Shown here piece by piece: positions 54,387 to 58,394 of a DNA stretch of 64,000 nt. Location: assembly GCA_902601705.1 (NCBI GenBank), contig CACKNV010000001.1, positions 186,001-250,000 of the forward strand. Direction: 5' to 3'. The DNA is from an uncultured Pelagibacteraceae bacterium (GTDB lineage: Bacteria > Pseudomonadota > Alphaproteobacteria > Pelagibacterales > Pelagibacteraceae). Each line of letters begins with the position of its first letter. The first letter of the stretch is position 1. The notes under the pieces were generated by a model, which worked only from the letters and a program-made list of their open reading frames with translations, had not been told where the DNA came from and did not search any database. The translations under genes and the position numbers were made by a program.

Positions 54387-54908
54387 ATGATTTTAAATTG
54401 TAATTCATGTAGTAAAAAATTTGTGGTTCCAGATAAAGCAATTACTGCTTCGGGGCGACTAGTACAGTGTGGTTCGTGTGGAAACAAATGGAAACAATTC
54501 CCAATTAATGAAAATCAGCAGACTGAGTTATCTACTAAAGTTGAAAAGAAATCACCAAATCAACAAAAAACTCCACAAAAGACACAAAAGCCGAAAAGAG
54601 CAAAAAAAAATGCTTCAAGAAAGCCTAGAGAAATAGATTTATATTCTCCAGAATATTTAGCAAAAAAACACGGTATCAAACTAAGTGAGGATGTTAAACC
54701 AACTTTATCTAAAACCAAAGTCTCCTTTGGATTCTATAATTCTTTATTATTGTTATTAGTAATTATTATAATTTTATCTAGAGGATTATATTTCTCTCAA
54801 GAATTTATAGTACAAAAATTACCGTTTACAGAATTTTATATTGATTACTTTTTTGAAAGTATAAGAAATATGTTTGTAATTTGGAAAAACCTAATTTCTA
54901 GTTATTAG
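54387..54908 (+). CDS. Zinc-ribbon (MJ0042-type) membrane protein
   Basis: The 173-residue protein has an N-terminal MJ0042-type zinc ribbon with Cys5/Cys8 and Cys28/Cys31 (CNSC, CGSC). A basic, low-complexity linker (about 45-80, rich in Lys, Gln and Pro) and one membrane span (about 115-135) follow, with a short tail. Proteins of this layout are common in alphaproteobacteria, and their role is unknown. The ribbon would be cytoplasmic. It converges on the fusion gene, overlapping it by 11 bp. Confidence 0.8.
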   Translation: MILNCNSCSKKFVVPDKAITASGRLVQCGSCGNKWKQFPINENQQTELSTKVEKKSPNQQKTPQKTQKPKRAKKNASRKPREIDLYSPEYLAKKHGIKLSEDVKPTLSKTKVSFGFYNSLLLLLVIIIILSRGLYFSQEFIVQKLPFTEFYIDYFFESIRNMFVIWKNLISSY

Positions 54909-57450
54909 CCTCTAATTCTTTAATATTCACAAAATTATCAGATAAATCTATATTATTTTTTTTGATGTCATCAAAAAAATTCCAAGCCAAGACTAAAAGA
55001 ATATTTTTTTTATCTTTAATAAATGATTTATTTTTAATAGGAATTTTTACTCCTGGTATAAATTTATTATGTTTAAGCTTATTATCTTCAACAATAAAAT
55101 CTATTTCTTTTGATATTCCAAAAAAATTTAATGCAGTTGTTGCTTTAGCTGGAGCTCCATAACCTACAATGACTTTATTTTTACCTTTAAGACTTTTAAG
55201 GTTTTTCAAAACATTTTCTCTAATTTTGTATACTTTTTCACCAAATCTTTGGTAAGTTTTAAATTTTTTAATTCCGAAAACTTCTTCCTCTTTAAGCATT
55301 TTTTTAACACTTTTTTCAATTTTTACTTTTTTATCTTTTTTTATATAAACTCTTATCGAGCCTCCGTGAGTATTAATTTTTTCTGATCTAAAAATTTTAG
55401 CCTCAAATTGATTAAAAAAATAAATTAAAGATGTTAATGACCAGTAATTATAATGTTCATGATAAATGTTATCAAAAGTTAAATCTTTAAGTGTATTCAT
55501 CAAGTATTGAACTTCAATAATTATGGTTCCTTTTTTACTTAATAGACTTAACATGCATTCTGACATTTCTTTTAGTTTATCTGAATGAGCAAAAACATTT
55601 GAAGCTAAGATTAAGTCTGCGTTTTTTTTTAACTTTTTAATATTTTTTTTTTCTAAAAAACCATTGAATGTTTTAATCTTATTTCTATTAGCAAGTTTTG
55701 CTAAATTTTTAGCCGGTTCAATTCCAAGAATATTCTTATAACCCAAATCTAAAAATGGTTTTAAAGCAACCCCATCATTACTTCCGATATCTATAATGTA
55801 TGATTTTTTTTTATTTAATTTTAATTCCTTAGAATATTTTTTTGCTGCTTTAATAAAATGGTCTCTAAACACTCTAGAGGTTGATGAGGTGTAAAGATAA
55901 TTAGAAAACATTTTTTTTGGATCAACTGCGACTGATAGCTGACAGTTATGACATTTTTCACAATAGTTTACTTCTAATGGGTAAAGATCACATTTTTCAT
56001 CTTTCTTGTTAATTAAATTATTTGCTAATGGTTGATATCCTAGAGATACGACTCTTTTAAGTTTTGTATTTCCGCATGATCTACATTCAAATTTGTAACA
56101 CTCCAATAATAATTTTTTCTCTTTTTCATCCACAAAAACATGTTTAATAGTATGTGTTATTCCATAGTTTTCATGATCTCTTTCACCTCTAACAAGATTC
56201 AAAAATGTTGTGTCTTTTGTAAAAACCATTGTATGAGCAACATTCGGTTTAATTACTGAAAGTTGACCGGCATTAACAACTTGGGTAATTTTTGGAGCAT
56301 TTGGATTAATTATATCTTGAAATATTTCTATAATTTGACCTTTAGTAAACAAACATTTTTGTTCTTGTTGAGGATGATAATGATTGGCTCTTATTGTACC
56401 TTTTTTTGACTCAATCATTCCTATCAAATTTATTGGCTCTGTTAACTCATGATTGCTTATGGAACCTCTTTTATCAACAAATAAATTCTCGCCATCTTTT
56501 ACGAACTCTAGTTCTTTAATTAAATTTTGTTTAGACCATTTTTGTATCATTTCTTTAATGTTTTGATCTAAGTTATAAAGAAATTTAAAACCTGTGTTCA
56601 ATATTTTTTTATTTGATAAAGAAAAGCCTAAATTTGGAACTTCGTCATTTGTCTCTTTCAACATGATTTTTGGATTATGTTTTTTACAAATTTCAGCAAC
56701 CTCTTTGACCGTTAAAGTGTCCTTTGTTAAATTAAAAATTTCTGATTTAATTTCATTTTTTTCTTCCATAAATTTAAAACACCTTGCTACATCAATTAAA
56801 GGAACAAGACTTTTTATCTGTCTTCCACCTGCAAATAATTTTAAAGTACCGTTTTGAGAAGCAATTTTGGAAAATAGATTTGGCATTATATCAACTCTCA
56901 TTGTATCCGATGAATAACCGTAAACTGAGCCAAGCCTCAAAATTATATAATTTTTACCTGAGTCTTTAAGTTGTTTTTCGTTTGTAGCTTTTGACGAAGA
57001 ATAAGATAACACCGGTTTAGTTTCTTCATTTTCTTGAATGTCAGTTTTTACTTTTTCTATTCCTTCATAAACAACATGGGTTGATGGAAAAATAATCTTG
57101 CAATTATCACTTACTACATCGAGAATATTTTGTGTTCCTTTTTCACCTACTTCCTTTATTTTTTTATCTTGATCCTCTGTTGACTCGTTTTTTGTTCTAG
57201 GAACACTAGTTATTCCTGCTAAATGATGAACGACGTCAGCGTCTGCAAAATACCTCTCTACAAGACTCCTATCTAAAATGTCTCCTTGTACAAATTCCAT
57301 GTTCCAATTTCTTAGTTGATTAACTCTTTCTGAAACAAATCTATTATCGATGACAACAATCTGGTGATACCAGCTTACTCCAGAGTAAAGCTTGCAAAGT
57401 TCAGTACCAATATATCCTAAGCCACCTGTAATTATTATTTTTTTTTCCAT
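54898..57450 (-). CDS. Three-domain fusion: NAD-dependent epimerase, cupin and C-methyltransferase
   Basis: This 850-residue protein joins three sugar-nucleotide domains. Residues about 1-310 are an extended short-chain dehydrogenase/epimerase, with the Rossmann loop GGLGYIG (9-15) and catalytic Tyr150-x3-Lys154 (YSSSK). Residues about 315-445 look like a WxcM/RmlC-type cupin, with HYHPQQEQ (358-364) and a C-terminal HTMVF strand. Residues about 455-850 are a TDP-sugar C-methyltransferase: zinc cysteines 456, 459, 497 and 500, SAM loop DIGSNDG (554-560), and a Rossmann-like C-terminal domain with VGYGAPAKATT. Such activities occur together in branched deoxysugar synthesis. The frame is continuous, so this is one chain, not a sequencing artefact visible to me. 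It is divergent from a GT17 gene. Confidence 0.88.
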   Translation of the reverse strand: MEKKIIITGGLGYIGTELCKLYSGVSWYHQIVVIDNRFVSERVNQLRNWNMEFVQGDILDRSLVERYFADADVVHHLAGITSVPRTKNESTEDQDKKIKEVGEKGTQNILDVVSDNCKIIFPSTHVVYEGIEKVKTDIQENEETKPVLSYSSSKATNEKQLKDSGKNYIILRLGSVYGYSSDTMRVDIMPNLFSKIASQNGTLKLFAGGRQIKSLVPLIDVARCFKFMEEKNEIKSEIFNLTKDTLTVKEVAEICKKHNPKIMLKETNDEVPNLGFSLSNKKILNTGFKFLYNLDQNIKEMIQKWSKQNLIKELEFVKDGENLFVDKRGSISNHELTEPINLIGMIESKKGTIRANHYHPQQEQKCLFTKGQIIEIFQDIINPNAPKITQVVNAGQLSVIKPNVAHTMVFTKDTTFLNLVRGERDHENYGITHTIKHVFVDEKEKKLLLECYKFECRSCGNTKLKRVVSLGYQPLANNLINKKDEKCDLYPLEVNYCEKCHNCQLSVAVDPKKMFSNYLYTSSTSRVFRDHFIKAAKKYSKELKLNKKKSYIIDIGSNDGVALKPFLDLGYKNILGIEPAKNLAKLANRNKIKTFNGFLEKKNIKKLKKNADLILASNVFAHSDKLKEMSECMLSLLSKKGTIIIEVQYLMNTLKDLTFDNIYHEHYNYWSLTSLIYFFNQFEAKIFRSEKINTHGGSIRVYIKKDKKVKIEKSVKKMLKEEEVFGIKKFKTYQRFGEKVYKIRENVLKNLKSLKGKNKVIVGYGAPAKATTALNFFGISKEIDFIVEDNKLKHNKFIPGVKIPIKNKSFIKDKKNILLVLAWNFFDDIKKNNIDLSDNFVNIKELEANN

Positions 57451-57503: not shown

Positions 57504-58394
57504 ATGAATATATTTGATTGCTTCATGTATAATGATGAAGACCTTTTATTAGATTTAAGGCTTAATCACCTGAGTAAATTTGTTAAAAAGTTCGTTATAG
57601 CAGAGGCTACTTACACTCATAACGGAGCAAAAAAAAAATTAAATTTTGATATCAATAAATTCAAAAAATTTAAAGATAAAATAATATATTTAATTGTAGA
57701 GGATCAGCCAAAAAACATATTACAATTTAATGCTGATGATACTGAAAGTAGAAAAGGAGAAAAACTTATCTTAAATGGTATGGCGAGAGATTATTTTCAA
57801 AGAGAATATTTAGCAAGAGGATTGATCAAAGCTGACGATGAAGACTTAATATTAATTAGTGATCTTGATGAAATTCCTAATTTGGATAGCCTAGATTTTA
57901 ATAATATTAAAAATAATATTATTATATTTGAACAAAAAATATTCTATTACAAACTTAATCTTCATTATGATGAATTATTATGGCAGGGCACAAGAGGTTC
58001 AAAAAATAAAAATTTAATTTCTCCTCAATGGCTAAGAAATCTTAAAGGAAAAAATTATCCTAAATGGAGAATTGATACCTTTTTTTCAAAAAAAAAATAT
58101 TCTAACTTAGTATTTGTGCAAGATGGAGGTTGGCATTTTACATGTCTGAAATCACCTGAAGAATTAGAAAAAAAATTAAATAATTTTGCACATCACTTTG
58201 AATTTAAAGAGAGTGGACTAAATATAGATGATATAAAAAGATTCATTGCTGAAAAAAGAGTTATTTACGATTATAAAGCAGATCAAAAACAATATAAATG
58301 GTCAGGTAAATCTATTCTTAAAAAAATTGACTCAAAATTATTACCAAACTATGTGTTTAATAATTTAAGCAAATACTTGGAATGGTTAGATTAA
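57504..58394 (+). CDS. Glycosyltransferase family 17-like protein
   Basis: The 296-residue protein resembles GT17 glycosyltransferases (beta-1,4-N-acetylglucosaminyltransferase group). It starts with MNIFDCFMYNDEDLLLDLRL, then EATYTHNG, and holds a DxD-type donor motif in SDLDE (119-123). The late motif is DGGWHFTCLKSPEELEKKL, with the conserved Gly-Gly-Trp-His-Phe. There is no signal peptide or membrane span, so it is cytoplasmic. It is divergent from the fusion gene with a 53-bp gap, which suggests a shared role in decorating a surface glycan or protein. A terminator follows it. Confidence 0.8.
   Translation: MNIFDCFMYNDEDLLLDLRLNHLSKFVKKFVIAEATYTHNGAKKKLNFDINKFKKFKDKIIYLIVEDQPKNILQFNADDTESRKGEKLILNGMARDYFQREYLARGLIKADDEDLILISDLDEIPNLDSLDFNNIKNNIIIFEQKIFYYKLNLHYDELLWQGTRGSKNKNLISPQWLRNLKGKNYPKWRIDTFFSKKKYSNLVFVQDGGWHFTCLKSPEELEKKLNNFAHHFEFKESGLNIDDIKRFIAEKRVIYDYKADQKQYKWSGKSILKKIDSKLLPNYVFNNLSKYLEWLD

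Follow-up and report, generated by a model that had tools for sequence, protein, structure and literature searches.

The C-3'-methyltransferases TcaB9, KijD1 and MtmC are standalone enzymes of antibiotic deoxysugar pathways, and the TcaB9/TylC3-type family methylates the carbon beside a 4-keto group. According to the passages of PMC10680097, Cj1427 of Campylobacter jejuni binds its NADH tightly and retains it; the enzyme oxidises C4 of GDP-heptose by a ping-pong mechanism with 2-oxoglutarate, and the pathway continues with a C3/C5 epimerase and a C4 reductase. In CapF (Cap5F) of Staphylococcus aureus, an N-terminal short-chain dehydrogenase/reductase (SDR) and a C-terminal metal cupin perform two successive keto-sugar steps on one chain, the SDR being an NADPH reductase that acts after epimerisation by the cupin, on a substrate coming from CapE (passages of PMC5393024). 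In this work we have analysed a gene from the SAR11 lineage (Pelagibacteraceae) that joins an SDR, a cupin and a C-methyltransferase in a single chain. The gene lies in a 64,000-nucleotide stretch, here called the window (contig CACKNV010000001.1, positions 186,001 to 250,000), of a draft genome of 1.08 Mb (GCA_902601705.1). Since a maker of 4-keto sugars, an epimerase and a C-methyltransferase on one chain read together as a branched-sugar pathway, we consider it very probable that the protein is a C-branched nucleotide-sugar enzyme. Each domain is of a known kind, and CapF already joins an SDR to a cupin. The unusual features are that three domains share one chain, that most sampled members of a streamlined genus have kept it, and that phages carry copies of the whole chain. 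No description of such a chain was found in the passages retrieved from the open-licence PMC literature, and the fusion is unmentioned in those of the SAR11 and pelagimyophage papers PMC2217521 and PMC7029224.

A first-pass annotation of this DNA had described an uninterrupted frame covering three domains. The frame is exact, and it runs on the minus strand, which that annotation had not stated; the plus strand across the same interval is stop-rich. The domain borders proposed there agree within a few residues with the Pfam placements on the 850-residue chain (PF01370, 5-241; PF08421, 456-515; PF13489, 535-679; PF08484, 694-834), and the large fusion in a compact genome is real. We reject a hidden stop or frameshift as the explanation of the long frame, because a single frame with more than 780 matched residues was found in 124 of the 135 loci examined (duplicates included). 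Eight of the 11 misses are cut at a contig end, one (L027; L and G numbers are our handles for loci and genomes) leaves the frame just before its contig end, and the last two are one phage contig counted twice, in which the frame is broken. An alignment of 125 rows, of which 106 are distinct and 12 come from phages, contains 190 invariant positions (SDR, 53; cupin, 45; methyltransferase, 92), and the catalytic residues are identical in every row, which bears out the earlier claim of recognisable active-site motifs in all three domains. The dN/dS ratio is 0.02-0.11 in every domain against seven close relatives, with synonymous sites near saturation, 0.06-0.21 against L097 and 0.17-0.39 against three phage copies; these ratios are rough, pN/pS being used where synonymous sites were saturated. 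As judged by them, all domains are under purifying selection. The full-length AlphaFold model (pLDDT 82.4, pTM 0.63) does not fix the relative arrangement of the domains; its fold matches were MtmC, KijD1 and TcaB9 over the methyltransferase (TMt about 0.87), followed by Cj1427 over the SDR (TMt 0.65-0.68).

In the SDR domain, G9, G12, G15, D35, S123, Y150 and K154 are present in all aligned rows. D35 stands at the end of strand 2, where an acidic residue goes with preference for NAD over NADP, and its invariance suggests that the domain uses NAD(H). The best match by sequence in the Protein Data Bank (PDB) is Cj1427 (6vo6; E 5.8e-27, about 26% identity), also the best by fold among the SDR matches of the full model. 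The Cj1427-type features, namely YxxxK, an acidic residue of the NAD type and the absence of the dehydratase Asp-Glu pair, are all found in the domain; Cj1427 likewise lacks this pair in the aligned stretch, and differs in being standalone. The RmlB-type motif ST-DE-VYG, as found in the genome's own RmlB and in the RmlB-like SDR of an unfused gene set (L161), is replaced in the fusion by ST-HV-VYEG, with H125 and V126 in 125/125 rows, and against TIGR01181 (RmlB) the domain scores 68 bits, where the cut-off is 365.1 bits. With Asp-Glu replaced by His-Val, we reject a 4,6-dehydratase role for the SDR domain and drop the "dehydratase" label given to it before; a necessarily 6-deoxy sugar is thus not indicated. 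Of the branched deoxysugar enzyme first proposed, the branched sugar stands as most likely and the obligatory 6-deoxy character does not.

In the C-terminal domain PF08421, PF13489 and PF08484 all exceed their cut-offs, giving the zinc-binding part, the S-adenosylmethionine (SAM) fold and the C-terminal domain of the TylC3/TcaB9-type layout. Its best match by both sequence and fold is MtmC (4rv9; phmmer E 1.8e-59, TMt 0.87). Residues Y518, H622, Y663, E665 and H666, present in all 125 rows, correspond to Y76, H181, Y222, E224 and H225 of TcaB9, the residues mutated in the structures 4e2w-4e31. The domain resembles TcaB9, KijD1 and MtmC in fold, in its zinc cysteines and in this Tyr/His/Tyr/Glu/His set, whereas those enzymes are standalone and here it forms the C-terminal part of a fusion.

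The stretch between the two outer domains is a cupin, an assignment that we make at the superfamily level from its predicted fold. The stretch alone reaches no Pfam cut-off (PF14667, E 0.0011; PF07883, E 0.0095); for the RmlC/FdtA families, PF00908 gives 12.8 bits against a gathering score of 27, and FdtA is not among the matches. A separate AlphaFold model, built on 38 aligned sequences (pLDDT 73.5), consists almost entirely of beta structure, and Foldseek matched it to PDB entries of the RmlC, FdtA, WbcA, DdahB and CapF types (E from 4e-6, TMq about 0.5-0.6), including the C. jejuni GDP-mannoheptose C3,5-epimerases. RANHYH or RGNHYH also occurs in six inspected standalone cupins adjoining standalone methyltransferases, and RSNHYH in a cupin-methyltransferase protein (L148). 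With FdtA/WxcM and RmlC the domain shares the fold and the His-x-His (H49/H51 of FdtA, whose mutants are named in structure entries), although it reaches no family cut-off. The order SDR then cupin is that of CapF, and metal binding is predicted from H357, H359 and H406, the last also invariant in 125/125 rows; CapF has no methyltransferase, and its likeness to the cupin consists of the fold match plus a weak sequence match (E 0.24). Of the "WxcM/RmlC-like cupin" of the first-pass annotation, the cupin therefore holds, while WxcM/FdtA was no closer than RmlC or CapF in the tests made, and family comparison is compatible with an epimerase and with a ketoisomerase alike.

We propose, with somewhat more confidence than doubt, that the fusion is a single-chain multifunctional enzyme making a C-methyl-branched sugar donor in three steps, a fourth being left open. 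The Cj1427-like SDR, with its resident NAD, would oxidise C4 of a non-dehydrated nucleotide sugar; the metal cupin would epimerise C3 and/or C5 of the 4-keto sugar, or move the keto group as FdtA does; and the zinc/SAM methyltransferase would deprotonate the carbon beside the ketone and C-methylate it there, at C3 by analogy. The ketone would then be reduced, most economically by the NADH still on the SDR, in a hydrogen-borrowing and redox-neutral manner, and otherwise by a separate reductase. The sugar could finally be used by the neighbouring glycosyltransferase (of family GT17 here; some other lineages have a GT2 of the polyprenyl-phosphate type instead), the probable destination being a surface glycan. 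We lean towards the SDR as the domain that starts the pathway by C4 oxidation, because of the missing dehydratase pair, the NAD-type D35, the likeness to Cj1427 and the lack of a clear tie to RmlB. Internal re-reduction on the retained NADH is doubtful, and the channelling of an unstable keto sugar is plausible. In its fullest and equally tentative form, one polypeptide would be a complete redox-neutral synthase, in which the C4 hydride is borrowed, epimerisation and C-methylation follow, and the hydride is returned before the keto intermediate is ever released, the whole forming with the glycosyltransferase a portable cassette. If this were true, the synthase would need just a common nucleotide sugar and SAM, and SAR11 core genomes and phages would share a two-gene surface-glycan cassette with which phages could recoat an infected host. 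With this enzyme one can test directly whether retained NADH allows a single chain to run several sugar-modifying steps without net redox change.

Whether the SDR starts or ends the pathway is the main uncertainty, and several observations weigh against the scheme above. CapF, the closest SDR–cupin precedent, reduces last (passages of PMC5393024), which favours the opposite order. The window's own genome encodes RmlA and RmlB, and same-genus unfused SDRs scoring 92-100 bits against the fusion SDR profile lie beside rmlA-/rmlB-like genes, a cupin gene and a related methyltransferase gene, so this class of SDR can work downstream of a 4,6-dehydratase. Among 62 genomes searched, leaving out G020 (a sub-cut-off match) and three with unfused variants (G243, G247 and G153), RmlB is somewhat commoner with the fusion (33/44) than without it (9/14). 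In addition, the SDR part of the full model contains a poorly predicted loop (residues 175-188), a cupin-methyltransferase protein exists in G243 without any SDR domain, and 11 of the 80 loci in our neighbour census (the best 80 of 222) have neither GT17 nor GT2 within 400 bases. On the alternative account, RmlB or GDP-mannose dehydratase (GMD) would supply a 4-keto-6-deoxy sugar, the cupin would epimerise it, the methyltransferase methylate it and the SDR reduce C4 as in CapF, giving a virenose- or mycarose-type 6-deoxy-C-methyl hexose. The virenose model in the passages of PMC3539893 also speaks for it, as do L161, L200 and L201, where unfused SDR, cupin and methyltransferase genes form groups that include or adjoin RmlB-like genes. 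RmlB was, however, not found in 11 of the 44 fusion-bearing genomes, nor in nine of the 22 with a completeness of 90% or more, counts tempered by the facts that drafts can miss genes and that other dehydratases were not searched for there; the association is not clear, draft genomes make the comparison weak, and we do not retain a dependence on RmlB. Moreover, the closest solved SDR is a C4-dehydrogenase, and the invariant D35 suggests NAD(H), whereas CapF uses NADPH. On balance we regard this order of events as unlikely.

A further possibility keeps C4 oxidation by the SDR as its only task and assigns the 4-ketoreduction to the methyltransferase domain, as described for MtmC, the product still being a branched sugar. 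The domain's closest relative by sequence and fold is indeed MtmC, which we take to be the TylCIII-type enzyme of Streptomyces argillaceus; against this counts that we know of no motif separating reducing from non-reducing methyltransferases, and we consider the assignment improbable. Passages of PMC3539893 describe 4-ketoreductase activity for the S. argillaceus enzyme. The fusion might also be a translational convenience, a collapsed operon that delivers equimolar parts whose domains act as their standalone homologues do, with no channelling. This idea, which does not exclude the others, we hold possible but do not favour: the same SDR-cupin-methyltransferase order occurs unfused in L161 (SAR11) and L162 (another genome of the phylum), and methyltransferase-only and cupin-methyltransferase forms lie close to the fused clade (L149, L150 and L148), but convenience alone leaves the preservation of the entire chain in several genera and in phages unexplained.

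The scan of related genomes suggested at the outset showed that close relatives are fused rather than split and that distant ones are separate genes. A first sample of 61 genomes gave some match in 51, and the fusion or a stretch of it in 31 of 37 same-genus genomes (the window's own included), mostly in one frame; the remaining six had no match or weaker domain-sized ones. In the second family of this sample the matches were methyltransferase- or SDR-sized, or cupin-plus-methyltransferase with an internal stop. Order-wide, 77 of 297 genomes matched at E 1e-60, among them 28 of the 29 same-genus genomes listed (again with our own), where the fusion is truncated in G077, broken by stops in G242 and partial in G322; genera g6, g9 and g10 have further full-length fusions. 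When the cupin-methyltransferase half was used as query across the family, 167 of 397 genomes gave a match; 111 of these belong to the same genus, and the total includes some unfused relatives in other genera. At 1e-75 this search gave no match in at least 20 same-genus genomes (75-98% complete), two of which, G077 and G017, do carry N-terminal stretches of the fusion. In G077 (L195:2198-2992) the fusion ends after 265 codons and other genes follow, reflecting a rearrangement or an assembly join. At 1e-60, neither the class sample (385 genomes, 33 matches, including our own genome and one unfused own-family match) nor the phylum sample (398 genomes, 21 matches, including our own) contained another full-length fusion; in these samples the related domains are encoded separately, in some cases in the order found in the fusion. 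None of 288 matching plasmid records covered 80% of the fusion query. SAR11 ranks among the Earth's most abundant bacteria (passages of PMC7029224), and in such abundant, streamlined genomes a 2.5-kb gene kept in most sampled genus members is probably useful.

The usual gene order is clpX-lon-[GT17, divergent]-fusion-zinc ribbon-nuoA (Table 1). In the neighbour census a GT17 homologue lies immediately upstream and divergent in 62/80 loci, six of which were counted by hand as the longest GT17 frame overlaps the fusion start; in five a GT2 gene stands immediately upstream in the same direction instead, and two reach the contig edge. With GT17 in 62 loci, GT2 in five and neither in 11, an obligate GT17 partnership is rejected. 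Three GT2 proteins that were scanned came closest to AglJ and also matched ArnC-type polyprenyl-phosphate transferases, far below the cut-offs. The lon region was compared in 17 loci from other genomes, with unannotated frames shorter than 120 residues left out: lon is followed directly by nuoA in eight and by other genes in seven, G077 has its truncated fusion, and in the same-genus G020, where lon, the zinc-ribbon gene and nuoA are present, both GT17 and the fusion are missing. Given these lon-nuo sites that lack the pair, GT17 and fusion behave as an insert in a core region, and no reductase gene lies beside them in this insert.

Table 1. Positions in the window of the fusion gene, its domains and motifs, and the flanking genes
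Feature	Position	Strand	Evidence and remarks
Whole three-domain fusion gene	54898..57450	minus	Open frame, ATG to TAG, 850 aa plus stop; one-frame full-length homologues
SDR domain, residues 1-310, Cj1427-like NAD-type sugar C4 oxidoreductase (predicted)	56521..57450	minus	PF01370; PDB match 6vo6
SDR catalytic Tyr150-xxx-Lys154	56989..57003	minus	Y and K invariant in 125/125 rows (106 distinct)
Cupin domain, residues 311-452, RmlC/FdtA/CapF superfamily, putative epimerase or ketoisomerase	56095..56520	minus	Sub-threshold Pfam; model and Foldseek
Cupin motif R-A-N-H357-Y-H359	56374..56391	minus	R, A, N, H357 and H359 invariant in 125/125 rows
C-methyltransferase domain, residues 453-850, TcaB9/MtmC/KijD1 family	54901..56094	minus	PF08421, PF13489, PF08484; 4rv9
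Zinc-binding subdomain C456xxC459...C497xxC500	55906..56085	minus	PF08421, E 6.6e-17; four Cys invariant in 125/125 rows
Methyltransferase motif Y663-H-E665-H666	55453..55464	minus	TcaB9 Y222, E224, H225; invariant in 125/125 rows
GT17-family glycosyltransferase, divergent neighbour, probable partner	57504..58394	plus	PF04724, E 6.9e-18; 296 aa
MJ0042-type zinc-ribbon protein, convergent flank, not part of the enzyme	54387..54908	plus	PF13717, TIGR02098

Surface-glycan clusters of the same genus (L200:1375-11895, L201:3940-12298 and L202:3951-9564) contain a fusion-related SDR of 307-308 residues and a standalone methyltransferase that is likewise related, with rmlB- and rmlA-like genes in L200 and L201 (the L200 RmlB being over the cut-off) and a cupin with RGDHAHK or RGEHAHK, FdtA-like by eye. 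To judge from these genes, the clusters are a parallel unfused pathway. The SDR at L200:10960-11895 has a TNSGYGIGEKD stretch like that of Cj1427, and this SAR11 cluster looks heptose-type by eye.

We know of no C-methyl-branched surface sugar in SAR11; such a sugar would bear on phage recognition and on the alteration of cells, because phages carry the same fusion. It occurs on 15 IMG/VR contigs, two of which (L112 and L115) hold the same stretch; 12 have one full-length frame, and in L126 and L134 the gene is cut by contig ends. At L119:4998-7574 the phage frame is broken into several pieces, through error or decay. A 642-kb phage record has a copy directly behind a GT17 gene, and within the stretches analysed GT17 is found in only 4/16 phage contigs (L118, L130 with a weak match, L135 and L145). 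The phage setting looks real where tested, to judge by neighbouring genes: SbcD/SbcC-like genes, of the T4 gp47/gp46 type, come next in L118, and L112 has a tail-fibre gene downstream. In L113 a NeuB gene adjoins the fusion, and a gene nearby was labelled GDP-mannose dehydratase-like by eye. The genomes of SAR11 pelagimyophages include sugar and glycosyltransferase genes, for which the tail-fibre region is a frequent location, and the passages of PMC7029224 name rfaE, UDP-glucose 6-dehydrogenase and glycosyltransferases, the fusion not being among them. In our tree, a branch with support 100 separates 12 phage proteins from 36 bacterial ones, which indicates that the exchange is old, and identity between the two groups reaches up to about 59%; a recent phage-to-host transfer is not supported.

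When standalone methyltransferases were used as outgroup, 15 fused domains and three unfused SAR11 relatives formed one clade with support 100, so that the tree fits a single origin of the fusion. Near the base of this clade, where inner support is low, lie the standalone methyltransferase and cupin-methyltransferase forms (L149, L150 and L148). Their placement suggests a stepwise build-up from methyltransferase through cupin-methyltransferase to the full chain; loss would be equally likely, because the methyltransferase-only L149:9447-10655 sits at the locus where L160:8577-11123 has the full fusion, with the same neighbours (transaldolase- and transhydrogenase-like by eye), and because of the low inner support. 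The 556-residue cupin-methyltransferase protein of the SAR11 genome G243 (L148:8934-10604) has a GT17 gene about 2 kb away; no SDR remnant was seen by eye in three frames before its gene, although the program alignment reached back to residue 233. In several more genomes a cupin gene adjoins a methyltransferase gene. Finally, the top viral fold match, BFVD A0A1V0SJ68 from a Klosneuvirus, is a 743-residue "methyltransferase" aligned over 869 columns with 22% identity and an rmsd of 13.2, possibly an independent SDR-methyltransferase fusion in a giant virus.

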